NCBI GenBank assembly: GCA_009777025.1
Contig: WRMS01000005.1
Span: forward strand, 1-34,279
Length of the DNA stretch: 34,279 nucleotides
Reading direction: 5' to 3'
DNA from: Clostridiales bacterium
Lineage (GTDB): Bacteria; Bacillota; Peptococcia; DRI-13; UBA5745
Made by a program: the position numbers and the translations under genes
In this document: piece by piece, positions 7,101-33,226 of the stretch
Layout of the letters: each line of letters opens with the position of its first letter
How positions within the stretch are numbered: position 1 is the stretch's first letter
Notes under the pieces: model-generated
Told to the model about the DNA's origin: nothing
The model's input: the letters and a program-made list of their open reading frames with translations, nothing else
The model's database searches: none

Positions 7101-9800
7101 GTTATGGTCTTTTTGATAACCCGTGATTTCAAACTCCACATCGTCCGCAGGCATGGTAAACGAACCCGGCGTTGCGGGATACGTGGACGGGAAGTACACT
7201 GGCCCGCCGTCTATCCTGCTGAATCCGACGACGGTCGTTCCGTTCATCGTAAAACCGTCGATCACCCAGCGGGTCATGTCGGGCACATTCGCTGCGTCGG
7301 TATTCCATGACGTGGGATAAAGCGCGTAATATACCGTAGTGCCCTCCCGAATCTTTCCCATACGGCCCGCTTCGTCCATTTGAGCTACCGACCGTGTACC
7401 CGGCGCCGTATCTGTCCAGAGCGCCAAATCGTAAAGTGTCATGCCATCGCCGACAAGCGGCTTAACGTTAATGGTATAGAAGTCGCCCGGCCTTATATCC
7501 TGTTTTAGCGTTACGGTGACTGTGACGTCGTTTGGCGGCATGGCGAGGATCTCCCACGAACCGCCCGGAACCTCGGCCAGGCTTGTGCCGGTCGCTGTTA
7601 CCGTGTCGATGGCATACCCTTCTTCGATATTTGTTACGAATAGGAAGACTTGATTGCCCGTCTGCGGTGCAGAGCCATTTACGGAGTTGACGGTCACAGT
7701 CGCCGAGCCGCCCGTGACCTCTGTGAATACGCGATGTACTGTACCATCTTCATACACAAGATCGACGGGTTCATCAGGCATGAGGAAGCCGCCGCCTCCG
7801 AGCGGATTGGATACATCCGTCGCTTCCTTCGTTCCTGCCTTGTAGACATATAGGTCGCCGCCTGTATACGCGTCAAGCGCGGAAAGATCGATATAGACTG
7901 TATCACCCGCCATAGCCCATAGGATCCCCTGCTCGCGCGTGACGCCGGAGACCGCGTTCCATAGGGCGCTTTCAATTGCCGTATCGCGCTGCCCCGCGTG
8001 AAACGCCTTGACGTTGACGGGCTGGGGCTGGTCCCCGGCCGAGCCGGCGTCAAATCCTACGCTTATTTCACCGCGTTTCATCGTCATGAGCGGCGTAAAT
8101 GTGTAGGCGTAGGTAAGGGGTCCTTCACTCACTGCACTATACGGGATTGCATCGCCGAAGTTTGTGTAATTGGTAGTATAGGGCGTCGCAAGACTCTTTT
8201 CCATATCCTGCATCTCGCAGGTCAGCGTGAATTCGGCCCCCTGCACCGCTATATACCGTTTATCGTTCGTCAAGCCACCAAGAAAAAAATTGGGGAAATC
8301 ATAGAAAACCACATCATCGCCGGACAGCTCTGCTGAAAAAAACTCCGCTTCTATATAATTCGTACTAAGCCGAATACCGGCATAACCGTCAGCGGGGTTG
8401 TCCGCATCGATAAACAAACTAAGGTCTAAATAGGAATCGGGAGGGCGTTTGCTAAATATTTCGCTGATCGGTAAGGCGACTTCTTCGCCTATTGCCACAC
8501 GATCAGAGTCAAACAGATAGCCGCTAAACCCCGAATCACCGTCTCGCCAGCTAATTTGAATGCTACAGTTGACGATAGCGTTTTTGATGAGTTCGGGTAT
8601 ACCCTCCTTGTAGTCTACGATAAGCAAAAGTTCTGCGTCTTCATCGCCGGTATCTGCGAGAAGCCCCATGCGTTTCGGATTGCCAAAGGGATCGATCCCT
8701 TTCGCCAGCGAAATGCTGCTGGTGATTGTAAAGAAATCTTCCGGCACAAAAGCGTATTCGACCCTGACCTCCGCTATGTCAAGTTCCCCGGAAAGCGCGC
8801 GCAAGCCTGTCGACGCCGGCAGAGGGTCGAAGTGCGGATTGCCGCGCTCCAAATCGTAGAAGCCGTAATTCGTGCCGTAAGCCGCCTGGTTTCCGCTTGC
8901 TACGTTCACCATGTCCCAATAGAGCAGCGCCGCGCTGTCAGCACCGGAACCATCGAACAGCGTAACACCGGCGGGCGTATACGCGAACCCGGCGTCATTT
9001 GCCCTGCTCAACTCCGAGAATACAACGGCGTCAGGTGAAGGGAAAGCGTTGTCGTCAAATAGGATATACCCCTTATTCGGGCTGTCTGCGTAGACAGTTT
9101 TCCCCGTATCAAGGTTGACTTCCTCTATCAATTCCTTGCTTATCAGCGCGGCATACGGCGCAGGGCGAAGGCTCGCCTCTGAATCAGCTAATAGGATATT
9201 GTCCGCATTATCGATGAGCATGATCGGGATGCTCTCGTCAGCCGTAAACTGCGTGTCAAGCAAAATCCGCCCGGCGATGTTAGCGGATCCTGCACCAAAA
9301 TATTGCGCCGCATAGCCTATTTTCACTGCGTAGGAATGGTCATGCAGCGTATCATTCGTTATGGCAAAAATCTGCGAGATGACAAAATCTCCGATTTGCC
9401 AATGGGATTCGAGAATCATATTCTCATTTACCATCGGCGCGATTCCCGCAATGCCGCTTTTGCCTTCGTAATACCCCCCGTAGTGGTAGGTTTCACCCTC
9501 TATTTGGAAAGAAGCGTGTGATAGGGACTTCGTTGCGTTAAACGTTTCTGTCGCAGGTAACACAGTGAACCCGCCGTCGCTCCTGTTGACGTAAACGGCT
9601 ATATAGTCATTGTACAATACGGCGTACGCTAAGCCGTCTGCTGCGGTAAACATACCGCCACGCACTGCTGCGGATTGTTGGCGCAAGTCAAACTGACGTT
9701 GTTCCATTGCGGCGGCAAGCGCGCCAAGCGGCAGCATTGTTGCCGCCATCACAACGATGAGCAGCACTGCTACTGCTTTTGAAAACCTTCTTATTTTCAT
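1146..9800 (-). CDS. Giant secreted surface protein with three C-terminal SLH domains (2884 aa)
   Basis: Residues 1 to about 31 form a signal peptide: basic MKIRRFSK, a hydrophobic core, then ALAAA. The long middle is beta-rich. Around residues 671, 750 and 880 there are recurring ends of the type F-x-M-P-x-x-D-V, typical of divergent InlB-type B-repeats. A Pro/Gly/Ser linker lies near residue 2600. From about residue 2700 there are three SLH domains (NPFADV, NPFGDV and TPFLDD openings, each with an LTR, VTR or ATR-type motif). SLH domains bind pyruvylated secondary cell-wall polymer, so the protein is expected to be anchored there by its C-terminus. It is probably an adhesin or sheath protein; no catalytic motif was recognised. 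The ATG at 9800 has GGAGG eight bases upstream and overlaps the stop of the four-helix-bundle gene (ATGA), which implies translational coupling. Confidence 0.9.
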   Translation of the reverse strand: MKIRRFSKAVAVLLIVVMAATMLPLGALAAAMEQRQFDLRQQSAAVRGGMFTAADGLAYAVLYNDYIAVYVNRSDGGFTVLPATETFNATKSLSHASFQIEGETYHYGGYYEGKSGIAGIAPMVNENMILESHWQIGDFVISQIFAITNDTLHDHSYAVKIGYAAQYFGAGSANIAGRILLDTQFTADESIPIMLIDNADNILLADSEASLRPAPYAALISKELIEEVNLDTGKTVYADSPNKGYILFDDNAFPSPDAVVFSELSRANDAGFAYTPAGVTLFDGSGADSAALLYWDMVNVASGNQAAYGTNYGFYDLERGNPHFDPLPASTGLRALSGELDIAEVRVEYAFVPEDFFTITSSISLAKGIDPFGNPKRMGLLADTGDEDAELLLIVDYKEGIPELIKNAIVNCSIQISWRDGDSGFSGYLFDSDRVAIGEEVALPISEIFSKRPPDSYLDLSLFIDADNPADGYAGIRLSTNYIEAEFFSAELSGDDVVFYDFPNFFLGGLTNDKRYIAVQGAEFTLTCEMQDMEKSLATPYTTNYTNFGDAIPYSAVSEGPLTYAYTFTPLMTMKRGEISVGFDAGSAGDQPQPVNVKAFHAGQRDTAIESALWNAVSGVTREQGILWAMAGDTVYIDLSALDAYTGGDLYVYKAGTKEATDVSNPLGGGGFLMPDEPVDLVYEDGTVHRVFTEVTGGSATVTVNSVNGSAPQTGNQVFLFVTNIEEGYAIDTVTATGTSLAEVPGGSWEILAMPPNDVTVTVTLKQDIRPGDFYTINVKPLVGDGMTLYDLALWTDTAPGTRSVAQMDEAGRMGKIREGTTVYYALYPTSWNTDAANVPDMTRWVIDGFTMNGTTVVGFSRIDGGPVYFPSTYPATPGSFTMPADDVEFEITGYQKDHNYSLSIEAYNQNGQMDPANLHIRSAPATGNSKETWFQYPADSGSYMDWVWGIGQFPINKQTAICVQTSIYDDVLQKVELEVNGDTRLPVKEDTEGNFRTYYFDPTWPYSGTVKLYFENQRRTLTINGYPRGDGYLEPGHVLVLPGEAWNAPGEDARSIEVMPVGGKYETFITLNWSARTKGQPVGTYYYLDNANAANCTVEETHRDADGCYAVYQVTFTGTGNASVDIQEQHVARDIGFSSYFMPNSPNSATFQTVTLAAEHEIVAGIVTSPENMRNILTATPAPKITGIGLRTSPAATYSTAVTDSDIFTSHSSAFTWEDSSGERMVIDIRALFGVADDYIFPDGKYTLTIEYAYGDGYAQRGSKEYTFALGYDKFRPGELTHVAVVQLYTGISSLPEGTPAGIGPGSWIAVPARNYDDMVEQAKKFNTNGHFIYFVCETGFQTNAHYSHSDLFGAHQYLSDGGAAVRMSGGGSFTSNDTTWGVFTLNVDANGLRVRTREMKFNSSWMPLFTPTGSGSTRTDMLTLELAHGKTYTIPEALPDFGEIRKKHATNEEATEEWREAVEEAKKTMPAMKIEYPDAVFSASDPGDFLLAELDGQGLAVSIGGFDGGLTFDVKDIYLMKYGFETGGRLNIQIPGMSKPILRLEVISMTTDSWSQTIPVSDVWAEGEGRLQLPAALGGYGASAYGVFNTYLDHYGFDGEVNFHFIELSGSFYIAKTSYGFPMLDTFIVSLGLNDVPVGLGLPPAPVQIIEIAGITVGVTNLADTVSYNPLKNTIPSVRIILGAKFSFVEILDFHAEMWAELLSAGFALSGGFSVGPINIDLFKEVSLGAGAKDGPYMPYDEDPIYASQIKGKRSITFYVNTKIHAYIFLADASLIFGVNATISPALWEKRGGFTDLQDLFAFIHMGLSTWGAGAVNVLPMSDEWSISGAEIGFDIEFGPGKNIEVMPINFTKFIIEAKVKLLGVKVEDETVSLLAYYRWLEDWLWDKVEDKLNSKRIQGLSAVSAMRAASAEFALREPAFAPFALMENAQMQLALMSQALTSPALLGAYGDIGNFTERRSYLDNVEATSETPGAPLAMGRMSRSVASGGGTISAEFDGSDYTHHVAVPNNGSDYILKLTGYGGDRIDFTDIRVFKPNGQALTVRGARGDMTAAQAEFGYNAVILNGALLLSLADYLGEEAGLEITGVGSTLTGVWQVKSDRPFKSELIRISYPSVTSVALSAAGVVTAKFENVSDTTKGDYYYDLTLERKGYPSAEPQEAMTLLKNMPVPPSGNVSHNLTDLVNPAGTASDHYNVNEILTSGDWYARVTLRQGSETTYTMNSLTGNISPSGAGTDTFLSTSYIDDRISQRAYRVNNTLFSGVSWSPAVTAVSGGNQSIDVRFDPASDTADMAVVGYHLAVYDENSGVNDIPASRIVTETDGAGNTVQKVVPMEYDVMASMPPAGQTRYDYTVQGVPVGTYKVGVSPLYADIVPELDEDGNVVAGEFKASTGVSRKGAEVLSGNVSIAQASPPPLSLSVSGGNLTNLKGQKVAFVGPDAELKATTDAGATVEFYEYDGTPITGAVGGTLPDLANYHGQALMILAANANKDVTIEYVTVYAATSAPLLLPDHFDATSGDFIFTAYKDTGNYRITGQTDPGATIGDVQADADGRFSLAGTLGALAGGVNEGTVALAVSNPAGMITMREARIVRGSDNEPVPPPGDSGGSASDHTASSSTNQATVNKDTSEDVTITLPNGTVITVPAGAVISANGNRIAIPKGGAGGTITHSNGHIFNIRAGTEIILDGGVPLGYYLVLDNPFADVKGSEWFLDSVLFAYAHGLMVGTNDSPMLFSPHVPLTRGMIVTVLYRMAGSPDVSGLPNPFGDVPGDKYYADAVKWAAANGVVNGYGGGRYGPEDNVTREQLATILNNYAQFAVLSLPLTRLYTPFLDDADISNYAKEAIERFFRAGIIGGYPDGSFKPRGEATRAEFAAMLMRFLTAME

Positions 9801-10180: not shown

Positions 10181-10246
10181 TATGAAGTTTTTGGAGAAAA
10201 ATTGAAACTAAATTTTTGAGAATAAACCCGTTAGTATGAAGTTTTT
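10181..10246. repeat. Direct repeat pair TATGAAGTTTTT, candidate operator
   Basis: TATGAAGTTTTT occurs at 10181-10192 and again at 10235-10246, 54 bases apart start to start (about five helical turns). Both copies lie in the A+T-rich gap between the divergent SLH operon and the LuxR regulator. Spaced direct repeats suit a MalT-type activator, but which protein binds here is inference. Confidence 0.45.
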
Positions 10247-10252
10247 TTGCTT

Positions 10253-10343: not shown

Positions 10344-12893
10344 TTGAGTGAAACCCAAAACGCTTTTCTAAAAAGCAGATTTACCCCCGCCGTACTGCCG
10401 GAGGTGTATGCGCCGAGGCGGGAGCTTTTATCCGTGCTCCACAAAGCGGCGTCGCGGCATTTTGTCTATGTGGGTGCGCCCGCAGGAAGCGGCAAGACCG
10501 TTTCTGCCTTGCTGTGGCTAAACGCCAGCGGGCGTAAATCTATCTGGATTGGGCTTAACGAGTATGACAACGCGACCGCTGTTTTTTACAAGCAGCTTGC
10601 CCTTGGCATTTTTTCCATTCAACCGGATAACGAGGGAATGCGCGGCTTGCTGACCGATTCCCATTTTTCCGCCACGCCGATAGAGCATACAATCCGGCTG
10701 ATTACAGAAATGCGCCCGGACGATGCGCTTTGCGCTATTGTCTTGGACGACGCGCATTTAGTCACAAACTTTGAGATCATCAAGTCCCTCCCCGCTGTGC
10801 TTGAGCGCTTGCCGAGAACCTTTGTCACGTTGATTTTATCAAGGAACCCCATGCCCGAAAGTTTCCGGCGCATAATCGTGGAGGATAGCGAACTATCGTT
10901 AGCACATCTCAGGTTCAGCCCGGACGAGATACGCCTGTACTTTCAGAGCCTCGGACGGTTTCTGTCGCCGGAAGAAGCGCAGTTCGCATTTGTTTCCACC
11001 GACGGGCTGGCAATCGGGGTAAACGCCGTGGCGATGTCGGGGCACATTGAACTTGGCAAAAGCGCAAGCGTATTTGCGCAATATTTTGAGGATCATATTT
11101 GGAATACATGGGATGATCGTACACGGGATTTCTGCCTCAAAACATCCGTGCTGGACGAGTTCACGCCTTACTTTGCAGAGCGGCTAACGGGATATGGCGA
11201 CGCGCCGGAGATCATGGAACGGCTATCGCGCACCAACGCTTTTTTAAGCCATTTGCATGAGGATATTTACCGGTTTCACCATTTGTTCCAAGAATTTTTA
11301 AGGGATAAGGTGCATCGATCCGATGTGGATGTTATTGCGCTCTATAAAACGGCGGCGGAGTTTTACAGGGAGAACGGCGAGTATTCAATGGCGCTTCGCT
11401 TTTGGCTGGATAGCGGCGACTACAAGGGCGCCGACGCCTTTCTGCTGCTGTTTATGTTTCACAATAACCATGGCGACATTGCCGGGTATGTGGATTTCTT
11501 GCGCTTGTATTTCATGCGAGATTTTCCGGAAAAGGCATTCAAGGACGCACCGGCTTTGCATGTCTGTTGCGCTTGGTATTATTACATGACCGGGCAATAC
11601 AAGGAATATGAGCATCACGCTGACGAGGGGTACAAGCATATCATGAGAATCGCGCTGTATGACCCGAAATTCGTGGAGTTCGCTATGCTGATGTATAGTG
11701 TGGATCATCGCAGCGAAATGTTGGATAAAGTAAAGCGCTTCGGCGTTTTCGGGAAACTGGTAAAGGGCTTTTCAAAAGACGGTATCATTCGGTATATCGC
11801 GTCTTTCACGCATAATCTGCCATACGCCCATAGAAGCAGTTATGACTATTCTGAGGTTTTGCGGACCCATGAAAATATCGTAAAGATTCGGAAATCCGCT
11901 TTTATCACCCTGCTTGGCGACCAAGCGGAGTGTATCATCCCTCTTGGCGTATCCGGCATTGATTATGAACGCAATTGTTTGGGCGCGGCATATGAGGAGA
12001 TGAGATTGCTGAATAGGCAACTGACGGAGCGGAACAGCGTTGAGCTTCGGGTCTCGTCAAAATTTCTTTATCACAGCATTCTTTTGCACATGGGACGCAC
12101 GGAAGAAGCGGATGCGGCGCTCAATGACCTCAATGCATTTGTAAATTCGTCCGCGCCGTTTTTTCTTTCGAACTTAGAGGCATATAAAACAAAAATCGCC
12201 TTGCTCGACTGCGACATGGCAGCGGCAAAAGCTTGGCTTGACAGTTATTATGTTGTTGAAGTGACATATATGGAATTGTACAAGCTGTTTCAGCACTTTA
12301 CCACAGCACGGGCGTATATGGTAACAGGCGACGGAGTGAACGCCCGAAAATATGTGACGATGCTCCGGGCGTTTGGGCAGAAGCTGAACAGGGTCTGCGA
12401 CTATTGCGAGGCGTCGGTATTGCTGGCGGCGCTTGATTGGGCGGAGGGCAACAAAAAAGAAGCCGTTGCGGTCCTGAGCGACGCGCTGGAAAGGCTTCAG
12501 CATTACGGCTATTCGAGAATGGTGATTGACGAGGGCGCGGCAGTGCTGCCAATACTGAAACGTATTGCTTCGCAAATAGGAAAGCAGGGTTACACCGGCA
12601 AGCTGAAACGCGAGTTTGTCAATGAATGTATGATTTCAGCATATGCTTTCGCAAAGCAACACAAAGGCGTCGCTGCGTATCATGTCAGGCAACAAAAGCC
12701 TGTAAAGCTTTCCAAACAGCAGAAGAATATCATAACGCTCCTGTCAAAAGGATACACCAACGCGCAGATTTGCGAGGTAACCGGACGCAAGATCACCACG
12801 ATTAAGACGCACACTTCGCTTGCGTATGAAAAGCTGAGCGTGAACAGCGCGATGGATGCTGTGTTGAAAGCGCGGGAGTTGGGGCTGATATGA
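10344..12893 (+). CDS. MalT/LAL-type LuxR transcriptional regulator (849 aa)
   Basis: This is a large ATP-binding LuxR regulator of the MalT type. It has a P-loop GAPAGSGKT at residues 44-52, a Walker B-like CAIVLDDAH near residue 135, a long helical repeat region from about 330 to 760 that probably senses a ligand, and a C-terminal LuxR helix-turn-helix from about 787 (LSKQQKNIITLLSKGYTNAQI, then TIKTHTSLAYEKLSV). Members are signal- and ATP-dependent activators. The start is TTG with AAAGGA upstream at long spacing, so the N-terminus is slightly uncertain. It is divergent from the SLH operon and ends 21 bases before the oppositely oriented LPxTG gene. The natural inference is that it controls one or both surface-protein genes; the ligand is unknown. 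Confidence 0.9.
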   Translation: MSETQNAFLKSRFTPAVLPEVYAPRRELLSVLHKAASRHFVYVGAPAGSGKTVSALLWLNASGRKSIWIGLNEYDNATAVFYKQLALGIFSIQPDNEGMRGLLTDSHFSATPIEHTIRLITEMRPDDALCAIVLDDAHLVTNFEIIKSLPAVLERLPRTFVTLILSRNPMPESFRRIIVEDSELSLAHLRFSPDEIRLYFQSLGRFLSPEEAQFAFVSTDGLAIGVNAVAMSGHIELGKSASVFAQYFEDHIWNTWDDRTRDFCLKTSVLDEFTPYFAERLTGYGDAPEIMERLSRTNAFLSHLHEDIYRFHHLFQEFLRDKVHRSDVDVIALYKTAAEFYRENGEYSMALRFWLDSGDYKGADAFLLLFMFHNNHGDIAGYVDFLRLYFMRDFPEKAFKDAPALHVCCAWYYYMTGQYKEYEHHADEGYKHIMRIALYDPKFVEFAMLMYSVDHRSEMLDKVKRFGVFGKLVKGFSKDGIIRYIASFTHNLPYAHRSSYDYSEVLRTHENIVKIRKSAFITLLGDQAECIIPLGVSGIDYERNCLGAAYEEMRLLNRQLTERNSVELRVSSKFLYHSILLHMGRTEEADAALNDLNAFVNSSAPFFLSNLEAYKTKIALLDCDMAAAKAWLDSYYVVEVTYMELYKLFQHFTTARAYMVTGDGVNARKYVTMLRAFGQKLNRVCDYCEASVLLAALDWAEGNKKEAVAVLSDALERLQHYGYSRMVIDEGAAVLPILKRIASQIGKQGYTGKLKREFVNECMISAYAFAKQHKGVAAYHVRQQKPVKLSKQQKNIITLLSKGYTNAQICEVTGRKITTIKTHTSLAYEKLSVNSAMDAVLKARELGLI

Positions 12894-14994: not shown

Positions 14995-15011
14995 CTAAGA
15001 TGAGCTGCGCC
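14995..15011. repeat. 17-base repeat shared with position 10124-10140
   Basis: CTAAGATGAGCTGCGCC occurs at 14995-15011 and identically at 10124-10140. Both copies lie upstream of minus-strand surface-protein genes and in the same orientation relative to them. The first copy is 16 bases before the start codon of the four-helix-bundle gene; this copy is about 150 bases before the LPxTG gene. The role is unknown. Confidence 0.4.
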
Positions 15012-15017
15012 CATAAC

Positions 15018-15038
15018 CCAAAGCTGCGCAGCCTTTGG
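15018..15038. other. Tight inverted repeat in the intergenic region
   Basis: CCAAAGCTGC pairs with GCAGC-C-TTTGG, a 10-bp stem with one bulged C and almost no loop. A second hairpin follows at 15114-15131 (CGCTGCG, loop ATTC, CGCAGCG). Neither is followed by T residues. They make this stretch unusually structured. Confidence 0.4.
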
Positions 15039-15493
15039 TGAATGTTACATGGGACGCTGTCCCATACCCTGTCAGCATTCGCGCGCATGTCGCTCATGCC
15101 TTCCGCTTTGCGGCGCTGCGATTCCGCAGCGTTAGTGACTGACTCCCAAAAAAGAACTTGTTTTAAATTGATGTTGTTGAGGAGTAAGTCACTATAGCGC
15201 ATGTTTATCTTATCGGAGAATCCGTGAGAGTGCTTCGTTTCGTGGACAAAGTTGTATGTACATGGGCTATTTACGATATACTATAGTCGTTCTGAAACAA
15301 AAAAAAAGCCCCCAATTTTTGTGAATTTGTAGAAATTATTACACCCCAATTTGTATAAATCCGAAATCCACATGCATTTCCATGATAGTTCGGTTACTTC
15401 CGGCAAGGTTGATGCTGTATTCGTCTGGAATAACATTCATCAAAAATTGTGTGAAAACATGTAGAACGCGCGAAGATAGAAAATATTGGGAAT

Positions 15494-15523
15494 GTATACA
15501 TGTATTTTGAACGACATGTATAC
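15494..15523. promoter_or_regulatory. Perfect inverted repeat, likely operator of the hdr operon
   Basis: GTATACATGT (15494-15503) and ACATGTATAC (15514-15523) are perfect inverted repeats with a 10-base spacer, so the half-sites lie 20 bases apart, two turns on one face of the helix. The right arm ends one base before the -35 hexamer. Each arm contains a GTATAC core, as in some GntR/FadR-type sites; that family assignment is only a suggestion. No regulator gene adjoins it. Confidence 0.7.
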
Positions 15524-15552
15524 TTGATTTTTAAATGATTCTCGGGTATACT
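15524..15552 (+). promoter_or_regulatory. Sigma-70 promoter of the hdr-flx operon
   Basis: TTGATT (15524-15529), exactly 17 bases, TATACT (15547-15552), five of six matches at the -10 box and four of six at the -35. Transcription would start near 15559, leaving a leader of about 25 bases before hdrB. It directly abuts the inverted repeat on its left. Confidence 0.75.
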
Positions 15553-15584: not shown

Positions 15585-16400
15585 ATGAGTTTTCATTATT
15601 ATCCCGGATGTACGCTGAAAACCAAAGCAAAGGATCTGGACGAATGCGCGAGAAAATCGGCGGAGGCCCTGGGTGTACCGCTCATCGAATGGGAGGAGTG
15701 GCAGTGCTGCGGCACGGTTTATCCCCAGGCACAAGATGAGATTGCAACGCGCCTTGCCGCTATCCGCGCGCTGGACGAGGCCAGGCGGAACGGCAGCGAT
15801 CTGCTGACGATTTGTTCCGCTTGCCACCATGTCATGAAGCGCATTAATCGCGATATGCAAACGAACGAAGACATCCGGACAAAGGCCAACAATTATCTTG
15901 CGCTGGATACGCCCTATACCGGGCAGACGCGGGTGGTGCACTATCTGGAAATGCTGCGGGATACGGTGGGTTTCGACGAGCTCAGAAAGCGTGTCCTTTA
16001 TCCGCTGACCGGGCGCCGGATCGGCGCCTACTATGGATGCATGCTACTGCGCCCAAGCAAGGAAATGCAGTTTGATGATCCGGAAAACCCGTCTATCATG
16101 GAAGATTTTCTGGAAGCCATAGGCGCTGAGCCGGTACGGTATCCTTACAGGAACGAATGCTGCGGCGGCTATGTAGCGCTTGAGGAGGCGGCGCTGGTAG
16201 GGGAGCTTTGCGGGAAAGTGCTGGATTCGGCGCGCCAAAAAGGCGCCGAAGCACTGATTACCGCCTGCCCGCTGTGCCGGTATAATCTGAGGAAGAACGG
16301 AAGCAAGCAGGATATGCCCGTTTATTATTTCAGCGAATTGCTTGCGGAAGCGCTGGGCGTGAACAGGACAAACACAGAGCCCGTTCGGTTAGAAAAGTAG
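15585..16400 (+). CDS. hdrB: Heterodisulfide reductase subunit B-like protein (HdrB, 271 aa)
   Basis: The protein has two complete CCG domains, which bind the two non-cubane [4Fe-4S] clusters at which HdrB cleaves disulfides. The first uses Cys9, Cys41-Cys42 and Cys77/Cys80; the second uses Cys152, Cys192-Cys193 and Cys228/Cys231. The length is close to the family norm. HdrB is the terminal, high-potential subunit of cytoplasmic HdrABC complexes and receives electrons through HdrC. In bacteria its substrate is usually unknown: CoM-S-S-CoB in methanogens, probably DsrC trisulfide in sulfate reducers. No dsrC gene is present here. It is the first gene of a nine-gene operon behind a clear promoter; a GA-rich ribosome binding site precedes the ATG. 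Confidence 0.93.
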   Translation: MSFHYYPGCTLKTKAKDLDECARKSAEALGVPLIEWEEWQCCGTVYPQAQDEIATRLAAIRALDEARRNGSDLLTICSACHHVMKRINRDMQTNEDIRTKANNYLALDTPYTGQTRVVHYLEMLRDTVGFDELRKRVLYPLTGRRIGAYYGCMLLRPSKEMQFDDPENPSIMEDFLEAIGAEPVRYPYRNECCGGYVALEEAALVGELCGKVLDSARQKGAEALITACPLCRYNLRKNGSKQDMPVYYFSELLAEALGVNRTNTEPVRLEK

Positions 16401-16439: not shown

Positions 16440-16838
16440 TTGAGTCCGGTTCGTTCGGAACCTGCGGAGATCGTCACAGAGATGAGCGGCGTCAATCCGC
16501 GAAAGTGCATGAGATGCGGAAAGTGTTCCGCGACCTGTCCGTCTTTTTCGAAAATCGATATTCCTCCCCATCGATTCGTCATGATGGTGGAAAACGGGGA
16601 AATAGAAGCGCTTCTTTCTTCGCAGCTGTTGTGGAAATGTCTCTCCTGCTTTGCCTGTGTGGAACGCTGCCCCAGGGGCGTGGAGCCTTCCAAACTGGTG
16701 GAAGCGGTGCGTCTGCTCCAAATCCGCGGTCAGGGGAAGAATTATAGGACGCCGGACGATGTGCCGCAGTTTGTCGAGGCGGATGAGGAGATTCCGCAGC
16801 AACTGATTACCAGCACCCTGCGGAAATATAGCAAGTAA
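16440..16838 (+). CDS. hdrC: Heterodisulfide reductase subunit C-like ferredoxin (HdrC, 132 aa)
   Basis: Two classical [4Fe-4S] motifs are visible: CMRCGKCSATCP at about residues 23-34 and CLSCFACVERCP at about 67-78, within the helical fold of HdrC. It carries electrons from HdrA to HdrB. The start is TTG at 16440, supported by an AAGGGGGG ribosome binding site about six bases upstream. It follows hdrB by 39 bases and precedes hdrA by 23. The length is somewhat short for the family, and no extra domain is present. Confidence 0.92.
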   Translation: MSPVRSEPAEIVTEMSGVNPRKCMRCGKCSATCPSFSKIDIPPHRFVMMVENGEIEALLSSQLLWKCLSCFACVERCPRGVEPSKLVEAVRLLQIRGQGKNYRTPDDVPQFVEADEEIPQQLITSTLRKYSK

Positions 16839-16861
16839 CGAATAAATAGGATGTGAGCGTA

Positions 16862-18847
16862 TTGCTGAAAATTGGTGTATTTGTCTGCTGGTGCGGAAGC
16901 AACATCGCCGGTACGGTAGACGTCAAGGCAGTAGTAGAAGCGGTAAAGGCAGAGCCGGGCGTGGTATTCTCCACAGATTATCAATACATGTGCTCCGAAG
17001 GAGGCCAGTCCGCCATCCGGCAAGCCATCAAGGAATACGAACTGGGCGGCGTCGTGATCTGCGCCTGTTCGCCGCGCATGCATGAGACGACCTTCCGCAA
17101 AGCGGCGGAAGCAGCCGGGCTTAACCCGTATATGGTCGAAATTGCCAATATACGCGAGCATTGTTCGTGGATTCATAAGGATAAGGAAGAAGCAACCGAA
17201 AAGGCCGTTGTACTGTGCCGGGCGGCGATTGCCAAGCTGAATCTCAACAAACCGCTATTTCCCGGAGAGAGCGGCGTAGTGAAGCGGGCGCTGGTCATTG
17301 GCGGCGGGATTGCCGGTATCCAGACGGCCCTCGATATCGCCGACGCGGGATATGAAGTGGATATTGTCGAGAAATCCCCCACGATCGGAGGCAGAATGGC
17401 GCAGCTCGACAAAACCTTTCCCACCCTGGACTGTGCCGCGTGCATTCTGACGCCAAAGATGGTGGAAGCGGCGGCCCATGAGAAGATCAGGCTTTTTACT
17501 TACAGCGAAGTAGAAGAGGTATCCGGCTATGTGGGCAGCTTCCGCGTGAAGATCCGGCAAAAGGCGCGCAGCGTAAACAGGGAATTGTGTAACGGCTGCG
17601 GCGAATGTATCGTGAAATGCCCTTCGAAGACGGCAAGTAATGCCTTCGACGAGGGTTTATCCAAACGCAGCGCCATTTATATTCCCTTTGCCCAAGCGGT
17701 TCCCAATCTGCCGGTGATCGACAGGGAGGCTTGCCTGCGCTTTCAGACAGGCAAATGCGGCCTATGCGAAATCGCCTGCAGCGCAAAAGCCATCGACTAT
17801 GAACAAGAGGATGAAACCATTACCGAGGAGTACGGGGCGATTGTCCTTGCTACCGGTTATAGGCCCATGTCTCTTGACCGCTATGATGAATTCCAATACA
17901 GTCAGTCTCCGGATGTGCTGACTTCACTTGAGTTCGAACGCATACTGAATGCCAGCGGCCCTACCGGCGGCAGCCTGCTCCGGTTATCCAATGGCGAAAA
18001 ACCCAAATCCATCGTATTTATACAGTGTGTGGGTTCCCGTTCTGACGACGGCTGCGGGAAGTCTTACTGTTCCAAGATATGTTGTATGTATACCGCAAAG
18101 CAGGCGATGCTGGTGAAAGACAAGTACCCGGATATCGATGTTACGGTGTTTTATATTGATGTGCGAACCCCCGGCAAGAATTTCGACGAGTTCTACCGGC
18201 GCGCGGCGGAAGCCTATGGCGTCCGGTATGTGAAAGGCATGGTCGGCAAAGTAGCCGAGTGGAAGGGCCGCCTGCAAGTGCAGGCTGTGGATTTGCTGGA
18301 AGACAAGCAGCTTCTCATCGACGCCGACATGGTGGTGCTTGCCGCTGCCATCGAACCGGATCCCGGCGCCCGCAAGATCGGCGCCATGCTGGCGGTCAAC
18401 ATGGATCAGAATGATTTCTTCACCGAAGCCCATCCGAAGCTTCGACCGGTGGAAAGCCCGACTGCCGGCGTCTTCCTGTCGGGAATGTGCCAGGGCCCGA
18501 AAGATATCCCGGAAACGGTCGCCCAAGCCGGCGCGGCTGCGGTAAAGGTCCTTGGCTTGCTGTCGAAGGATAAGCTGGTAGGGAATCCTTGTGTAGCCAT
18601 TTCTGACGAGACGCTCTGTAACGGTTGCTCTTCCTGCGAAGCGCTCTGTCCTTATGACGCCATAACCTTTGAAGAGAAGCAGGTTATGGTGCAGGGCCGG
18701 CGTGAAACACGCAGGGTCGCGATGGTCAACGAAACCATGTGCCAGGGCTGCGGCGCCTGTACGGTGGCCTGCCCCTCGGGAGCGATGGACCTGAAGGGCT
18801 TTACGAACAGGCAGATTATGGCGGAGGTGGACGCGATATGCCGATGA
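16862..18847 (+). CDS. hdrA: Heterodisulfide reductase subunit A, electron-bifurcating flavoprotein (HdrA, 661 aa)
   Basis: HdrA holds the FAD that splits electron pairs. Seen here: an N-terminal VFVCWCG segment; a Rossmann motif VIGGGIAGIQTA followed by EKSPTIGGRMAQLDKTFPTLDCAACILTPKM, typical of HdrA; ferredoxin motifs LCNGCGECIVKCP and CGLCEIAC in the insert; a Cys-rich CGKSYCSKICC; and two C-terminal [4Fe-4S] motifs (LCNGCSSCEALCP and MCQGCGACTVACP). The length is normal for a stand-alone HdrA. TTG at 16862 is preferred because AGGATGTGA, eight of nine bases of the ideal ribosome binding site, lies five bases before it; a GTG at 16853 lies inside that site. The stop overlaps flxD. In Flx-Hdr complexes it receives hydride electrons through FlxD and sends one branch to ferredoxin and one to HdrC/HdrB. 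Confidence 0.93.
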   Translation: MLKIGVFVCWCGSNIAGTVDVKAVVEAVKAEPGVVFSTDYQYMCSEGGQSAIRQAIKEYELGGVVICACSPRMHETTFRKAAEAAGLNPYMVEIANIREHCSWIHKDKEEATEKAVVLCRAAIAKLNLNKPLFPGESGVVKRALVIGGGIAGIQTALDIADAGYEVDIVEKSPTIGGRMAQLDKTFPTLDCAACILTPKMVEAAAHEKIRLFTYSEVEEVSGYVGSFRVKIRQKARSVNRELCNGCGECIVKCPSKTASNAFDEGLSKRSAIYIPFAQAVPNLPVIDREACLRFQTGKCGLCEIACSAKAIDYEQEDETITEEYGAIVLATGYRPMSLDRYDEFQYSQSPDVLTSLEFERILNASGPTGGSLLRLSNGEKPKSIVFIQCVGSRSDDGCGKSYCSKICCMYTAKQAMLVKDKYPDIDVTVFYIDVRTPGKNFDEFYRRAAEAYGVRYVKGMVGKVAEWKGRLQVQAVDLLEDKQLLIDADMVVLAAAIEPDPGARKIGAMLAVNMDQNDFFTEAHPKLRPVESPTAGVFLSGMCQGPKDIPETVAQAGAAAVKVLGLLSKDKLVGNPCVAISDETLCNGCSSCEALCPYDAITFEEKQVMVQGRRETRRVAMVNETMCQGCGACTVACPSGAMDLKGFTNRQIMAEVDAICR

Positions 18848-19386
18848 GTACGGAGAGCCAAGTGCAGGCAAATGCGCCGGCAAAGGCGCCAACAAATGCG
18901 CCGGCAAATGCGCCGGCAAATACGCTGATCAATACACCAGGAAATGAGGAGAAAGACGGAAAAGCGTTCCGTCCGCTGATCGTTTCGTTTTGCTGCAACT
19001 GGTGCAGCTACGCGGGCGCCGACTTGGCAGGATCGAGCCGCCTTACGTATCCGGCGGATGTGAAGATTATCCGCGTGCCCTGCTCCTGCCGAATCAATCC
19101 GCTGTTTATCCTGCGGGCTTTTCAAAGGGGGGCGGACGGCGTCATCGTCAACGGCTGTCATCCCGGCGATTGCCACTACTCTACGGGCAACTTCTATACA
19201 CGCAGAAGAATGGCGCTGCTCTTCAGTATGCTCGACTTTTTGGGTATTGAGAAGGAGCGGACCCGGGTAGAGTGGGTTTCCGCCGCGGAGGGCGCCAGGT
19301 TTGCCTCGGTCATGCGTGAGTTTGTCGAACAAATACGAAGGCTGGGGGAAAACAAGAAATTGGGGGATATCCGATGCAAAGAATAA
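18838..19386 (+). CDS. flxD: MvhD/FlxD-type iron-sulfur subunit (182 aa)
   Basis: This is the small [2Fe-2S] protein (MvhD/FlpD family) that docks an electron-input module onto HdrA. The conserved cysteines are present: VSFCCNWCSYAGADLAG, RVPCSCRINP and NGCHPGDCHYSTGN. The ATG at 18838 is chosen for the GGAGGTGG site upstream; it overlaps the hdrA stop by 10 bases. Unusually, the family domain begins only at about residue 43. The first 42 residues are a low-complexity Ala/Asn/Pro tail encoded by six 12-base repeats. Its 3' end overlaps the next gene by 13 bases. Confidence 0.9.
   Translation: MPMSTESQVQANAPAKAPTNAPANAPANTLINTPGNEEKDGKAFRPLIVSFCCNWCSYAGADLAGSSRLTYPADVKIIRVPCSCRINPLFILRAFQRGADGVIVNGCHPGDCHYSTGNFYTRRRMALLFSMLDFLGIEKERTRVEWVSAAEGARFASVMREFVEQIRRLGENKKLGDIRCKE
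18868..18939 (+). repeat. Six 12-base tandem repeats encoding an Ala-Asn-Ala-Pro tail of FlxD
   Basis: Units of 12 bases based on GCAAATGCGCCG run from 18868 to 18939 in frame. They give ANAP, AKAP, TNAP, ANAP, ANTL and INTP, with divergence growing toward the 3' end. The unit is a multiple of three, so copy-number changes keep the frame. Confidence 0.85.
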
Positions 19387-20360
19387 TAGGAAAAATGAGG
19401 GAAAAAGCGAAAGAGCTGCTGGAAGCGGGCACGGTTGACGCTGTGCTGGGCTGGAAGAAAGGCGATTTTGCCTATGATCCGACGCCGGCTTTTTTTTACA
19501 GTACCGACGAGCTGGACATGCTGGCCTACGACGGTTTCTGTGGCAGTAACCTGAGCAAATACCTTGTTGAATATGGTAAAGAGAAGGGAAAGGTTTTGGT
19601 ATTCCTGAAGCCTTGCGACACCTACAGCCTGAATCAATTGGTTAGCGAGCATCGCGTTGACAGGGAGAACGTGTATGTTGTGGGCGTGGGCTGCGACGGC
19701 ATGCTCGACGTCCAAAAACTCAGGGATAAAGGGATCGCCGGCATCGAAGAAATCGAAGAGGCGGGAGAGGACCTGCGGATTCATACTTTATATGGCCTGA
19801 AGACCTGCCCCCGGGACGAAGCGCTGCTGAAGAAATGCCAAAGCTGCAAGGGCAAGGAGCATAAACTATTTGACGATCGCATTGGCGCGGAAGAATCCCG
19901 GGATATCGCGAACGAGGACCGTTTTGCGGAGGTTGCGGAGTTGGAAAAGATGTCGCCGGAGGAACGCTTTGCGTTCTGGCGCGCCGCGCTTTCCTCCTGT
20001 ATCCGCTGCAATGCCTGCCGGGAGGCTTGCCCTGTCTGCAGTTGCCATACCTGTATCTTTGACAACGCGCGTTCGGGCGTCGACGCTAAGGCGAACGCCA
20101 GCGAATTTGAAGAAAACCTGTTTCATATCATTCGCGCGTTTCATGTGGCGGGACGCTGCAGCGACTGCGGGGAATGCAGCCGCGTATGCCCGCAGGCCAT
20201 CCCCCTGCATCTGCTGAACCGGAAGATGATCAAAGATATCCAATCGTTCTACGGAGCGTTTCAGGCGGGCGACTCGGCAGACCAGTGTTCCCCGCTGCTC
20301 AGCTACTCGCCGGACGACATAGAGCCGGATGCGTTCGACCGGTGGAAGGGGGTTATGTGA
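19374..20360 (+). CDS. FrhB-like/dicluster ferredoxin subunit of the Flx module (328 aa)
   Basis: The N-terminal 170 residues resemble the beta-subunit fold of F420-hydrogenase/sulfite-reductase-associated proteins (VLVFLKPCDTYSLNQLV, then VYVVGVGCDGML). They are followed by a CQSCKG pair and two ferredoxin motifs: CIRCNACREACPVCSCHTC near residue 205 and CSDCGECSRVCP near residue 262. In flx-hdr operons two such iron-sulfur proteins (FlxB and FlxC) wire the NAD(P)H-oxidising FlxA to FlxD. I cannot say which of the two this is. The start overlaps flxD by 13 bases and has GGGG upstream; the stop overlaps the next ATG (TGATG). Confidence 0.85.
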   Translation: MQRIIGKMREKAKELLEAGTVDAVLGWKKGDFAYDPTPAFFYSTDELDMLAYDGFCGSNLSKYLVEYGKEKGKVLVFLKPCDTYSLNQLVSEHRVDRENVYVVGVGCDGMLDVQKLRDKGIAGIEEIEEAGEDLRIHTLYGLKTCPRDEALLKKCQSCKGKEHKLFDDRIGAEESRDIANEDRFAEVAELEKMSPEERFAFWRAALSSCIRCNACREACPVCSCHTCIFDNARSGVDAKANASEFEENLFHIIRAFHVAGRCSDCGECSRVCPQAIPLHLLNRKMIKDIQSFYGAFQAGDSADQCSPLLSYSPDDIEPDAFDRWKGVM

Positions 20361-21397
20361 TGCTGAAACTCCCCGTGTCCCAAATGGAGGAACTCTTTGC
20401 TTCGATAGCCAGCGAACAAAGCCTGTACCTGCCCCTTGAGACGAACGGCTTGATTGCCTTCAGCCGCTGGGAGGAAGGAAAGCAAGCGCGTTTTGATCAA
20501 CTGCATTGCGCCGGTTCGGTAAAAGATTTTTTCTTTCCGCAAACCGAAAATCTTGCTCTGTTCAAAACGAGCGGCAAAGAGATACATATCGAAGAAAATC
20601 GCGATCCGGAGGAAGCCTTCGTCGTGTTTGGCGTGCGCGCCTGCGACGCCGGGAGTTTGTCCATTCTGGACCGCGTATTCTATGACGAGCCTGCGGATAC
20701 CTTCTATCAGACCAGACGCCGGCAGGGACTCATTATCACCGTCGCCTGCAACGCGCCCGAAGAGACATGCTTTTGTCATACTTTCGGTTTGGACGCGGCG
20801 GATCCAGGCGGAGACGTCGCCGTATGGCTGCTGGAGGACATGCTTTACTGGGATAGCCGGACAGAGAAGGGCCATGCGCTGACGGAACGGCTCCGGGGAT
20901 TGTTCGAAGAAGCGGGCGATCAAGGGGAAGAGACTGTGCGAAAGGGCAAGGCCGATATCGGAAAAATCATAGACAGACTTCCCTTGCGGGATCTTTCGCT
21001 GGAGCGTTTTGCCGGCGACGGGATGATGGAAAAATTTGACGCGCCGCAATGGGAGTCTCTGCAGGAGGCCTGCCTCGGCTGCGGAACCTGTACTTTTGTC
21101 TGTCCTACATGTCACTGTTACGATATCCGGGACTTCGATACAGGTCACGGTATACGGCGCTTCCGCTGCTGGGATTCCTGTATGTTTTCCGACTTTACCC
21201 TGATGGCCCACGGTAACCCCCGTCCAAGCCGCCTGGCGCGTTTTCGTCAGCGATTTATGCATAAATTAGCGTATTACCCCGAAAACCACGAAGGACTGTA
21301 TGCTTGTGTCGGCTGCGGCCGCTGTATCACCAAATGCCCCGTATCGATGAATATTACCAAAGTGATCAAAACGCTGGGGGTGGATCAACATGCGTAG
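20360..21397 (+). CDS. AsrA-like 4Fe-4S dicluster subunit of the Flx module (345 aa)
   Basis: The sequence VVFGVRACDAGSLSILDRVF and the two C-terminal ferredoxin motifs (CLGCGTCTFVCPTCHCYD and CVGCGRCITKCPVSMNI) match the anaerobic sulfite reductase A/hydrogenase-beta family used as FlxB or FlxC. It is an electron relay between FlxA and FlxD. The ATG at 20360 overlaps the preceding TGA by one base, with AAGGGGG about eight bases upstream; the frame is open further upstream, but only as a shadow of the previous gene. The 3' end overlaps flxA by eight bases, so the two are translationally coupled. Confidence 0.88.
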   Translation: MLKLPVSQMEELFASIASEQSLYLPLETNGLIAFSRWEEGKQARFDQLHCAGSVKDFFFPQTENLALFKTSGKEIHIEENRDPEEAFVVFGVRACDAGSLSILDRVFYDEPADTFYQTRRRQGLIITVACNAPEETCFCHTFGLDAADPGGDVAVWLLEDMLYWDSRTEKGHALTERLRGLFEEAGDQGEETVRKGKADIGKIIDRLPLRDLSLERFAGDGMMEKFDAPQWESLQEACLGCGTCTFVCPTCHCYDIRDFDTGHGIRRFRCWDSCMFSDFTLMAHGNPRPSRLARFRQRFMHKLAYYPENHEGLYACVGCGRCITKCPVSMNITKVIKTLGVDQHA

Positions 21398-22220
21398 CGG
21401 GGAAACGCTCATACCCGTATTAGGGGTAGTGACAGAGATACGGCGGGAAACGCCTGACGTGAAAACATTTCGTGTCAGCGCGCCTGGCGGCGGCGCGGTC
21501 TTTCCGCATATGCCGGGGCAATGCGCCATGCTGTCCATACCCGGCGTCGGCGAGGCGATGTTTTCCATTACCACATCCCCGACGACCAAAGCGTATATGG
21601 AATTCAGCATCAAGCAAACGGGTTTGCTTACCGACTGGCTCCACGGAATGGAGCCCGGACAGCAGGTTGCCATTCGCGGGCCTTACGGAAACGCCTTTCC
21701 CCTTGAGACGGAGCTGAAGGGAAAAGATTTGCTGTTTATCGCGGGAGGGATCGGTCTTGCGCCGCTGCGCGCCGTGATTCTCTATGTACGGCATTACCGG
21801 GATAATTACGGTAAGGTGGACCTTGTATATGGCGCCCGTTCAAAGGAGGATCTGGTTTTCTATGAGGAAGTCAGCAAAGACTGGGCCTCGTCAGAAGATA
21901 TGCAGGTTCATCTGACCATTGACCGCGCCCAGGAGGGATGGGAAGGCAATGTTGGCTTTGTGCCTGATTTTGTCCGATCCCTGGACTTTTCTCCGAAATG
22001 CAGCACACTGGTCTGCGGTCCCCCGATTATGATTAAGTTAACCCTGGATGCGCTGTGGGGAATGGGTTTTGACAGAACAAAGACGTTCACGACGATGGAA
22101 CTGAAGATGAAGTGCGGCGTGGGGAAATGCGGACGCTGCAACATCGGTTCGAAATATGTATGCAAAGATGGCCCGGTGTTTCGCTGTGACGAATTGGCGG
22201 AACTGCCGGACGAATACTAA
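21390..22220 (+). CDS. flxA: NAD(P)H-oxidising flavoprotein FlxA, ferredoxin-reductase type (276 aa)
   Basis: The order is that of the dihydroorotate dehydrogenase electron-transfer/sulfhydrogenase-gamma family: an N-terminal FAD-binding barrel (MFSITTSP at the flavin motif), an NAD(P)-binding domain (FIAGGIGLAPLRAVI, then VYGARSKEDLVF and CGPPIMI), and a C-terminal [2Fe-2S] motif CGVGKCGRCNIG with a further Cys in YVCKDGP. It should take hydride from NADH or NADPH and pass single electrons to the iron-sulfur subunits; which nucleotide cannot be judged from sequence. This gene completes a recognisable hdrBCA-flxDCBA set. The ATG lies inside the end of the preceding gene with a GGGGGTGG site. 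Confidence 0.9.
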   Translation: MRSGETLIPVLGVVTEIRRETPDVKTFRVSAPGGGAVFPHMPGQCAMLSIPGVGEAMFSITTSPTTKAYMEFSIKQTGLLTDWLHGMEPGQQVAIRGPYGNAFPLETELKGKDLLFIAGGIGLAPLRAVILYVRHYRDNYGKVDLVYGARSKEDLVFYEEVSKDWASSEDMQVHLTIDRAQEGWEGNVGFVPDFVRSLDFSPKCSTLVCGPPIMIKLTLDALWGMGFDRTKTFTTMELKMKCGVGKCGRCNIGSKYVCKDGPVFRCDELAELPDEY

Positions 22221-22241: not shown

Positions 22242-22946
22242 ATGATTGACATGGTAAACATCTATTTGTACGGGAAGAAATATGAAGTCCCGGCAAGCGC
22301 TACAATTCTGATCGCCATGGAATACGCGGGCTATCGGCTGGTACGCGGCTGTGGCTGCCGCGCCGGGTTTTGCGGCGCCTGCGCCACCATCTATCGTATC
22401 GAAGGAGATCGGGAGCTCAAGGTAGGCCTGGCCTGCTCGACCAAGGTCGAAGACAAGATGTACATTGCGACGCTGCCCTTTTTCCCGCATATTAAACAGC
22501 TTTACGATATCCGTACAACCAGACCGGCGGATCAGATCATGATGCAGCTTTATCCGGAGATCTACAGTTGTATCGGCTGTAACGCCTGCACCAAAGCCTG
22601 CCCGCAGGAACTGGACGTCATGCAGTATATCGCATACGCGCAGCGCGGAGACTATACGAAGTGCGCAAAAGCATCCTTCGATTGCATTATGTGCGGCATA
22701 TGCGCCTCACGCTGCCCGGCAGGGATTTCCCATCCGCAAGTGGCAATCCTGGCGCGGAGATTATATGGCAAGTATCTGGCGCCGAACGCCGATCACCTGG
22801 ATGATCGCCTGAAGGAGATGGAGGACGGCGGACTGGAAGCCATGGTGGAGCAGTTGATGAACCGTCCGATCGAAGAGATACGGGAACTCTACAACACAAG
22901 GGATATCGAGGACGAAAATATCGCGGACAGCGAGATCAACGATTAG
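22242..22946 (+). CDS. SdhB/TfrB-like iron-sulfur protein (234 aa)
   Basis: The N-terminal half is a plant-type [2Fe-2S] domain with Cys39, Cys44, Cys47 and Cys65, the arrangement found in succinate dehydrogenase/fumarate reductase subunit B. The C-terminal half has two canonical [4Fe-4S] motifs, CIGCNACTKACP and CIMCGICASRCP. SdhB normally has a [3Fe-4S] site facing membrane quinone; here the last motif has the full CxxCxxC pattern, which argues for a soluble, quinone-free electron path as in thiol:fumarate reductase TfrB. Unlike TfrB, it carries no CCG domains; hdrB in the same operon could supply them. GAGGGA precedes the ATG. It lies 21 bases after flxA and 13 before the flavoprotein. Confidence 0.85.
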   Translation: MIDMVNIYLYGKKYEVPASATILIAMEYAGYRLVRGCGCRAGFCGACATIYRIEGDRELKVGLACSTKVEDKMYIATLPFFPHIKQLYDIRTTRPADQIMMQLYPEIYSCIGCNACTKACPQELDVMQYIAYAQRGDYTKCAKASFDCIMCGICASRCPAGISHPQVAILARRLYGKYLAPNADHLDDRLKEMEDGGLEAMVEQLMNRPIEEIRELYNTRDIEDENIADSEIND

Positions 22947-22959
22947 TAGGAGGAAGAGT

Positions 22960-24576
22960 ATGTATACACCCGAGATGCTTGCTTCTATTCAAAAAGTCGA
23001 AGCTACGAGACAAGTCCGGATGGCTACGGAGCCGGACAGGATGTCGGCGGAAGAAAAGGATGCGCTTCTGAATGCCTACCACCCTGACTTTAAGACGGAG
23101 TGTTTTACCGAAATCAAAGTCGGGCCGAATAAAGGCGATAAGGCGCCTACGGAATTGGCGGCGCTTTTGCACGGGCACAGCCGGATCCGGCATGCCTATA
23201 TCAATTTGAAAAATATCGATTACGACGTGGATGTTCTGGTCATCGGCGGCGGCGGCGCAGGCGCGTCGGCGGCGATCGAAGCGCATAATGCGGGCGCGAA
23301 TGTCCTCATTGTGACCAAGCTCCGCCTCGGTGACGCCAACTCGATGATGTCCCAGGGTGGTATCCAGGCTGCGGATAAGGAAAACGACTCGCCGGCGCAG
23401 CATTACCTTGACGCGTTTGGCGGCGGGCATTATGCGGCGCAGCCGGATTTATTGAGAAAGCTGGTCCTGGACGGCCCGGGCGCGATCAAATGGCTCAGCG
23501 ACTTGGGGGTTATGTTTGATAAGGAGTCCGATGGCAGGATGCAGACGACCCACGGCGGCGGTACTTCCCGCATGCGGATGCACGCCGCGGCGGACTATTC
23601 GGGTGCGGAGATTATGCGCACGCTGCGGGACGAGGTATTTAACCTGAGGATCCCGGTCGTTGATTATACCGCGGCGGTGGAGCTCATTCTGGACACGGAC
23701 GGTAAAGCCGCAGGCGCGGTGCTGATGAACATGGAGACGAATGAGTACCTGGTCGCCCGCGCAAAAACCGTGATCCTTTCCACGGGCGGGGCGGGACGAT
23801 TGCATTATCAGGGCTTCCCTACATCCAATCATTACGGCGCTACAGCGGACGGCTTGATTATGGCTTACCGTGTCGGCGTCCAGCTGGTGTATCCGGACTC
23901 CTTCCAGTATCATCCCACCGGCGCCGCGTATCCCCAGCAGATTTTCGGCGATCTGGTTACAGAAAAGGTTCGTTCCATCGGCGCGATTCTGGCCAATGTG
24001 GATGGGGAGGCGTTCATGCATCCGCTGGAGACCCGGGACGTTTCCTCGGCGGCCATCATCCGCGAATGCATTTCCAGAGGCAAAGGCGTTTCCACACCGA
24101 CCGGTTTTGCGATTTGGCTGGATACGCCGGTGATTGAAATGCTCCACGGCGAGGGCACGATTCTTCGGAGGATCCCGGCTATGTACCGGATGTTCATCAA
24201 ATACGGCATCGATATGCGCCGGGTTCCCATATTGATCTACCCCACGCTTCACTATCAAAACGGGGGACTGAAGATCAATGTGGACGGCAGCACCAGTGTA
24301 GAAAACCTGTATGTCGCCGGCGAAGCGGTCGGGGGCATTCACGGGCGCAACCGCCTGATGGGCAATTCCCTATTGGATATCATTGTCTTTGGCAGAATCG
24401 CCGGTCAAAGCGCCGCGGACAAATATCCTTCCGTCAGCGTCGGAAAACTGGCCTTAACCCATGTAGAAGATTACGAACATGCGCTGAATGACGCGGACGT
24501 GGAGAAACAGACGATTTCTCCCATGCTCCTGCCCTCCTATGCCCGCAGACAGGAATATGATAGGAGAAGGTTATAA
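22960..24576 (+). CDS. Fumarate reductase/succinate dehydrogenase-type flavoprotein (538 aa)
   Basis: The FAD motif VIGGGGAGASAAIEA begins near residue 95. Family signatures follow: SQGGIQAA, THGGGTSRMRMHAAADYSG, STGGAGRLHYQGFPTSNHYGATADG, FQYHPTG, RDVSSAAIIREC and HGRNRLMGNSLLDIIVFGRIAG. These include the His and Arg residues that bind the dicarboxylate in fumarate reductase and L-aspartate oxidase. The His that bears covalent FAD in membrane Frd/Sdh is absent (NSMMSQGG), as in NadB- and Tfr-like enzymes, so FAD is probably non-covalent. There is an N-terminal extension of about 85 residues. It lies 13 bases after its iron-sulfur partner; no membrane anchor gene follows. The substrate could be fumarate or another enoate. 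An aspartate oxidase role is less likely because no nadA or nadC is adjacent. Confidence 0.87.
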   Translation: MYTPEMLASIQKVEATRQVRMATEPDRMSAEEKDALLNAYHPDFKTECFTEIKVGPNKGDKAPTELAALLHGHSRIRHAYINLKNIDYDVDVLVIGGGGAGASAAIEAHNAGANVLIVTKLRLGDANSMMSQGGIQAADKENDSPAQHYLDAFGGGHYAAQPDLLRKLVLDGPGAIKWLSDLGVMFDKESDGRMQTTHGGGTSRMRMHAAADYSGAEIMRTLRDEVFNLRIPVVDYTAAVELILDTDGKAAGAVLMNMETNEYLVARAKTVILSTGGAGRLHYQGFPTSNHYGATADGLIMAYRVGVQLVYPDSFQYHPTGAAYPQQIFGDLVTEKVRSIGAILANVDGEAFMHPLETRDVSSAAIIRECISRGKGVSTPTGFAIWLDTPVIEMLHGEGTILRRIPAMYRMFIKYGIDMRRVPILIYPTLHYQNGGLKINVDGSTSVENLYVAGEAVGGIHGRNRLMGNSLLDIIVFGRIAGQSAADKYPSVSVGKLALTHVEDYEHALNDADVEKQTISPMLLPSYARRQEYDRRRL

Positions 24577-24707: not shown

Positions 24708-24839
24708 ATGAAATCAGAATCAGAAATGAAACCGACTTACCAACCTACCGACACAAGAAAGAGAACAGAACTTAGAGTATTGGCAGCAACCCCCCTTTAT
24801 GATACCCCTCCTTTCATTAGCGCAAAACGGACCGAATGA
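24708..24839 (+). CDS. Possible small protein ORF (43 aa)
   Basis: ATG at 24708 has TTGGAG six bases upstream, a good ribosome binding site, and opens a 43-residue frame (MKSESEMKPTYQPTDTRKRT to ISAKRTE). It is hydrophilic, with no membrane segment or recognised motif. Its TGA falls in the loop of the terminator hairpin, so it would be the last cistron before termination. It may be chance. Confidence 0.3.
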   Translation: MKSESEMKPTYQPTDTRKRTELRVLAATPLYDTPPFISAKRTE

Positions 24840-24853
24840 CGGTCCGTTTTGTG
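24821..24853. terminator. Terminator hairpin between convergent transcription units
   Basis: CAAAACGGACC (24823-24833) and GGTCCGTTTTG (24841-24851) are perfectly complementary around the loop GAATGAC, extendable by a G-U and a C-G pair to 24821-24853. The T residues lie inside the stem, so on either strand the transcript has a U-rich descending arm. Its position between converging genes supports a bidirectional terminator. Confidence 0.75.
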
Positions 24854-33154: not shown

Positions 33155-33226
33155 ATGGGAAAAATAGTAAAACGTTGGCTAAAATGGAATACCGAAAAAC
33201 CTGAGCAGTTACACGAGTCCGAATAG
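33155..33226 (+). CDS. Possible 23-residue peptide ORF
   Basis: ATG at 33155 has AGAAGG eight bases upstream and opens the short frame MGKIVKRWLKWNTEKPEQLHESE. Its first half is basic with two Trp and its second half acidic. It follows the iteron-like repeats by 32 bases and overlaps the 3' end of the convergent COR gene. It is too short for firm support. Confidence 0.25.
   Translation: MGKIVKRWLKWNTEKPEQLHESE

Follow-up and report, generated by a model that had tools for sequence, protein, structure and literature searches.

The operon that begins with an hdrB-like gene in the window (the whole 34,279-nt stretch of DNA analysed here) is preceded by an inverted repeat, and the question is what this element does for the genes behind it. 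The dyad has the form GTATACATGT-N10-ACATGTATAC, and its arms are exact reverse complements. Its last base directly precedes the –35-like hexamer TTGATT, so the two abut; in coordinates, arms and position, the perfect 10-10-10 dyad abutting the –35 box is just as the original prediction described it. We consider it probable that the dyad is an operator of some kind. The features discussed below are collected in Table 1.

Table 1. Dyad, putative operators, promoter hexamers and downstream genes, in window coordinates.
Feature	Coordinates	Strand	Remarks
Putative operator 1, ATGTATACAT	15492-15501	.	Perfect 10-bp palindrome; centre about -62.5 from inferred start
Perfect dyad, whole	15494-15523	.	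Sequence
Dyad, left arm GTATACATGT	15494-15503	.	Sequence
Dyad, spacer	15504-15513	.	Sequence
Dyad, right arm ACATGTATAC	15514-15523	.	Sequence
Putative operator 2, ATGTATACTT	15516-15525	.	One change (9/10); centre about -38.5
-35-like hexamer TTGATT	15524-15529	+	Sequence, promoter scan
-10-like hexamer TATACT	15547-15552	+	Sequence, promoter scan; 17-bp spacer from TTGATT
hdrB-like gene (CCG domains)	15585-16400	+	
hdrC-like gene	16440-16838	+	
hdrA-like gene (HdrA2 type)	16853-18847	+	
mvhD/FlpD-like gene	18739-19386	+	Pfam match begins at residue 81; true start probably beyond 18739
4Fe-4S protein, conserved cluster member	19374-20360	+	
FlxA/AsrA-like 4Fe-4S protein	20174-21397	+	
FlxB/AsrB-like FAD/NAD protein	21390-22220	+	
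frdB/TfrB-like 2Fe-2S/4Fe-4S protein	22242-22946	+	
frdA/TfrA-like fumarate reductase flavoprotein	22960-24576	+	
Hairpin, 12-bp stem	24823-24851	.	Between operon and convergent gene; probably terminator

The hdrABC, mvhD/flx and frdAB-like genes all lie in one transcriptional direction. Judged by its gene content, the operon hdrBCA-mvhD-flx-frdBA is of the Flx-Hdr/fumarate reductase ‘succinate operon’ kind, predicted to encode a soluble fumarate-reducing complex. A succinate operon of Flx-Hdr and fumarate reductase genes is known from Pseudoclostridium thermosuccinogenes, where it is upregulated about 4-fold under CO2 limitation (PMC7282089). Both operons unite an Flx-Hdr electron-bifurcation module with a fumarate reductase, but whereas fumarase heads the operon in P. 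thermosuccinogenes, hdrB comes first in the window, behind its own promoter and the dyad. The passages of PMC7282089 consulted name no operator for the P. thermosuccinogenes operon, and the literature examined yielded none for operons of this type. If the putative operator is real, it would provide a concrete handle on the switching of a cytosolic, probably electron-bifurcating fumarate reductase operon, and the shortness and exactness of the putative sites make it a readily testable claim; the arrangement by itself is an ordinary operator-promoter layout.

The promoter TTGATT-17-TATACT, as originally predicted, is plausible by position and is the only plausible promoter of the operon. A consensus scan returned 2 promoter-like sites versus 2.0 expected by chance, so the scan lends it no independent support. 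The hdrB ATG (15585) lies 32 bp beyond TATACT; with an inferred leader of just some 26 nt, post-initiation control would have little space.

Each arm of the dyad is itself palindromic. Because both GTATAC and ACATGT are palindromes in themselves, an inverted and a direct reading of the repeat are almost equally good. Two GTATAC cores lie at 15494-15499 and 15518-15523; a third, at 15546-15551, overlaps the –10 hexamer and may be only that hexamer itself. The symmetry of the arms leads us to read the dyad as two complete putative operators, ATGTATACAT and ATGTATACTT, rather than as half-sites of one dyad. Their centres are 24 bp apart, and ATGTATACTT overlaps the –35 hexamer by 2 bp. As far as the letters can tell, two self-palindromic full operators are the description we prefer, and the functional unit is probably something other than the 10-10-10 arrangement. 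That the half-sites lie two helical turns apart holds for the arm centres, at 20 bp; between the GTATAC cores the distance is 24 bp, and between the ACATGT cores it is 16 bp.

Our preferred reading, which we advance tentatively and at somewhat less than even confidence, is that the dyad forms a double operator through which a dimeric or tetrameric repressor, likeliest of the GntR FadR/FCD subfamily, controls the succinate operon. One dimer would occupy ATGTATACAT, centred near –62, and another would occupy ATGTATACTT, centred near –38, where it would overlap the –35 hexamer; both together would block RNA polymerase, and a small carboxylate-type effector would release the repressor. We infer each of these elements, that is protein binding, FCD-GntR identity, repression and effector. 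Dimer or tetramer binding next to the promoter, as first proposed, fits the evidence with the amendment that there would be two full operators, and a GntR-type protein, one of the regulators suggested at the outset, fits both the GTATAC core and the presence of two FCD-GntR genes in the genome.

The closest parallel is Atu1419 of Agrobacterium fabrum (VanR group), a tetrameric FCD-GntR repressor in which each dimer of the tetramer holds one palindrome; its exact 10-mer operator is ATGTATACAT (PMC7797058). The first putative operator thus matches the Atu1419 site at 10/10 positions and ATGTATACTT at 9/10. The Atu1419 paper was the one relevant result of a text search with sub-words of the site, and as the query was made of the letters of the site itself, the ATGTATACAT match is post hoc. 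As in the window, the two Atu1419 palindromes share one regulatory region, and the sites overlap or adjoin promoter elements. However, 190 bp separate the Atu1419 palindromes, between which the DNA can be looped, as against 24 bp between the window cores; the Atu1419 gene is adjacent and autoregulated, whereas no regulator gene adjoins the dyad in the window; and the target is hydroxycinnamate catabolism rather than fumarate reduction (PMC7797058). The GTATAC core also fits the operator consensus of the FadR subfamily, GTM-N0-1-KAC, the members of which sense carboxylic acids (PMC4494728). Operators of this subfamily with a 2-nt GT/AC spacing (GntR, UxuR and PrpR groups) resemble the window in carrying GTM-KAC in an A/T-rich palindrome, and double sites are common among them (PMC4494728); a difference is the outer TKGT/ACMA box, which window box 1 (ATGT/ACAT) matches at 3/4 positions.

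The two FCD-GntR genes of the genome (one on C68, at G000 C68:5636-6349, the other on C36) each encode GntR and FCD domains. The C68 protein matches Atu1419 (6z74) and keeps R31, E34, R45, T46 and R49, counted along the alignment; these residues are reported to contact DNA, but much of the family shares them, which makes their presence weak evidence. In a congener (G008), the promoter of an FCD-GntR gene different from that on C68 contains two GTATAC cores at a spacing of 15 bp, within a divergent intergenic region; paired GTATAC cores thus do occur with an FCD-GntR gene in the genus, once. Counted against an FCD-GntR protein are the lack of a regulator gene beside the dyad, the failure of the dyad to appear upstream of hdrB in any of 80 relatives, the absence of GTATAC from the promoters of both the C68 and C36 genes, the failure to find an FCD-GntR gene beside the tandem sites examined in other genomes, the presence of the C68 gene in 5/5 genomes of the genus while hdrB occurs in only one, and the similar pairs that precede an RHH-protein gene and a ParM-like gene.

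The LuxR/MalT-like regulator encoded in the window (10344-12893) was rejected as a candidate: it stands next to surface-protein genes, and nothing ties it to the dyad. Near it, a 2884-aa protein with SLH domains (1146-9800, minus strand) and a protein with an ice-binding-like adhesive domain are encoded; the SLH protein and its neighbours are probably a surface-protein cluster. Elsewhere in the window, 33209-34246 encodes a protein matching the COR-B domain of Roc-COR proteins.

We scanned 398 genomes of the phylum for TGTATACWT pairs at a spacing of 9-24 bp and found them in 14, versus 4 for the reversed motif used as control; six matches share a 20-bp centre spacing, and several precede genes of central carbon or nitrogen metabolism. 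Pairs precede pycB (pyruvate carboxylase/oxaloacetate decarboxylase type) in G379, G417 and G133, lie between a biotin-carboxylase gene and a pta-like gene in G087 and precede an RHH-like gene in G337 and a ParM-like gene in G425 (pta and ParM named by eye); the target gene in G262/G185 has no Pfam match. In the congener G007, tandem ATGTATACA boxes lie in a glutamine synthetase III/glutamine-amidotransferase divergon (L202, about 10220-10250), the amidotransferase gene of which has no counterpart in this genome. So mixed a target set supports real use of the pairs, but not a single regulator. Further GTATAC pairs in this genome fall within ORFs or at their margins. One more exact match to the motif, the only other one observed in an intergenic position, is ATGTATACATGTAT (G000 C74:4786, L123/L158); it lies about 60 bp before the gene of a secreted protein with copper-amine-oxidase-N and alpha/beta-hydrolase domains and is a weak candidate for a second target. 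That tandem TGTATACWT marks an undescribed phylum regulon, in which one regulator family would link C4-dicarboxylate/anaplerotic carbon to glutamine/glutamate synthesis, strikes us as a long shot; its members would be the succinate operon here, pycBA in G379, G417 and G133, and the G007 glutamine divergon.

It is quite possible, if less likely than not, that the sites serve a protein of another fold: an RHH protein (antitoxin-like or a NikR-like tetramer), a response regulator on ATGTATACWTG near-direct repeats, or a TetR-type protein. The boxes form a direct repeat as much as an inverted one, and such a protein could activate from just upstream of –35 instead of repressing, for which positions –62/–38 would be suitable. 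In G337 the RHH-like gene, whose Pfam match falls just short of the cut-off, is preceded by two ATGTATACAT boxes spaced 23 bp apart. NikR sites have a 6-16-6 layout (GTATGA-N16-TCATAC), which TATACA-N16-TGTATA in the window shares, but the letters differ from the GTATGA half-site. Nor does an RHH or response-regulator gene adjoin the site: the gene directly downstream is hdrB, and the small intergenic ORFs, read by eye, are not RHH-like. Among other families, the Rex (NADH-sensing) operator that would be expected for an NADH-linked operon is missing near the promoter, where there is no TTGTKAA-N4-TTMACAA within 3 mismatches, in agreement with the original prediction. The familiar operator patterns of CcpA, FNR/CRP and LysR (ATAC-N7-GTAT), compared by eye, do not fit either.

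A chance A/T-rich inverted repeat with no regulator, next to a promoter that alone matters, is an unlikely explanation that several results nevertheless favour. Perfect 10-bp dyads arose in 19/2000 shuffles of the last 384 bp of the intergenic region (about 1%), and 7/300 shuffles of all 726 bp (about 2%) contained some perfect dyad, counting arms of 10 or more and gaps up to about 30, so the dyad is unusual, not astronomically so. The cores also differ little from the –10 hexamer TATACT. In the window the dyad is unique with up to 3 mismatches allowed (0 expected in shuffles), and a genome search found it to be single-copy, apart from one place with 3 mismatches, within TATCCA-type repeats that lie upstream of a gene resembling aminotransferases. 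The exact dyad was absent from viral contigs, a class-level scan found none outside this genome, and a phylum-level scan found matches in 8/398 genomes. Three related genomes (G379, G417, G048) keep a form GTATGCATGTC-N8-GACATGCATAC beside a different gene set, between two same-strand genes (1501-1530 of loci L195, L196 and L197); it looks unrelated to the window dyad.

Conservation favours chance as well. The expectation that close relatives would keep the dyad upstream of hdrB found no support in the 80 relatives available: none has the dyad within 250 bp upstream of the gene, and all of them are distant (62-68% HdrB identity), with different upstream genes. Their Hdr-Flx series is the same and likewise starts with hdrB; the gene directly upstream is usually malate-dehydrogenase-like or fumarase-like (by eye); in an order-level relative (G022) it appears, also by eye, to be a class I fumarase. 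Three GTATAC matches at –72 upstream of the relatives' hdrB were discarded, as they come from near-identical sister strains and do not represent conservation. Within the family hdrB is present in 1/9 genomes, this one alone, and within the order in 2/25. Against chance stand the position of the dyad, which abuts the operon's only plausible promoter, the identity of its core with an experimentally bound operator (that of Atu1419), and the excess of tandem TGTATACWT pairs over control in the phylum.

An RNA hairpin acting as a weak terminator or attenuator on a transcript from upstream, with the stem followed by TTGATTTTT, is very improbable: the RNA strand does fold (–12.4 kcal/mol, z –3.4) and a T-rich run comes after the stem, but the likely start site comes only after the dyad, A-T pairs make up most of the stem, which closes a 10-nt loop, the upstream gene is oriented the opposite way, and neither a terminator scan nor Rfam gave a match at the dyad.

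The same intergenic region also contains, at about 14995-15196 and 300 bp upstream of the dyad, one copy of a dispersed repeat of ~200 bp that begins CTAAGATGAGCTGCGCC and ends in a variable hairpin ...TTACTAA. About 40 scored matches to this repeat were found in this genome, 39 in the congener G005, 8 in G006 and 0 in other family members. An Rfam search of the stretch returned no matching family. The repeat folds well (z –5.6), and in an alignment of 12 copies 11/49 consensus pairs covary, with both partners changed; the element may be mobile, or a transcribed structured repeat. Another copy is located upstream of the C68 FCD-GntR gene (L100 3440-3560, G000 C68), where the terminal stem is different yet self-complementary (TTAGTCCCTTACGGAC / GTCCGTAAGGGACTAA).
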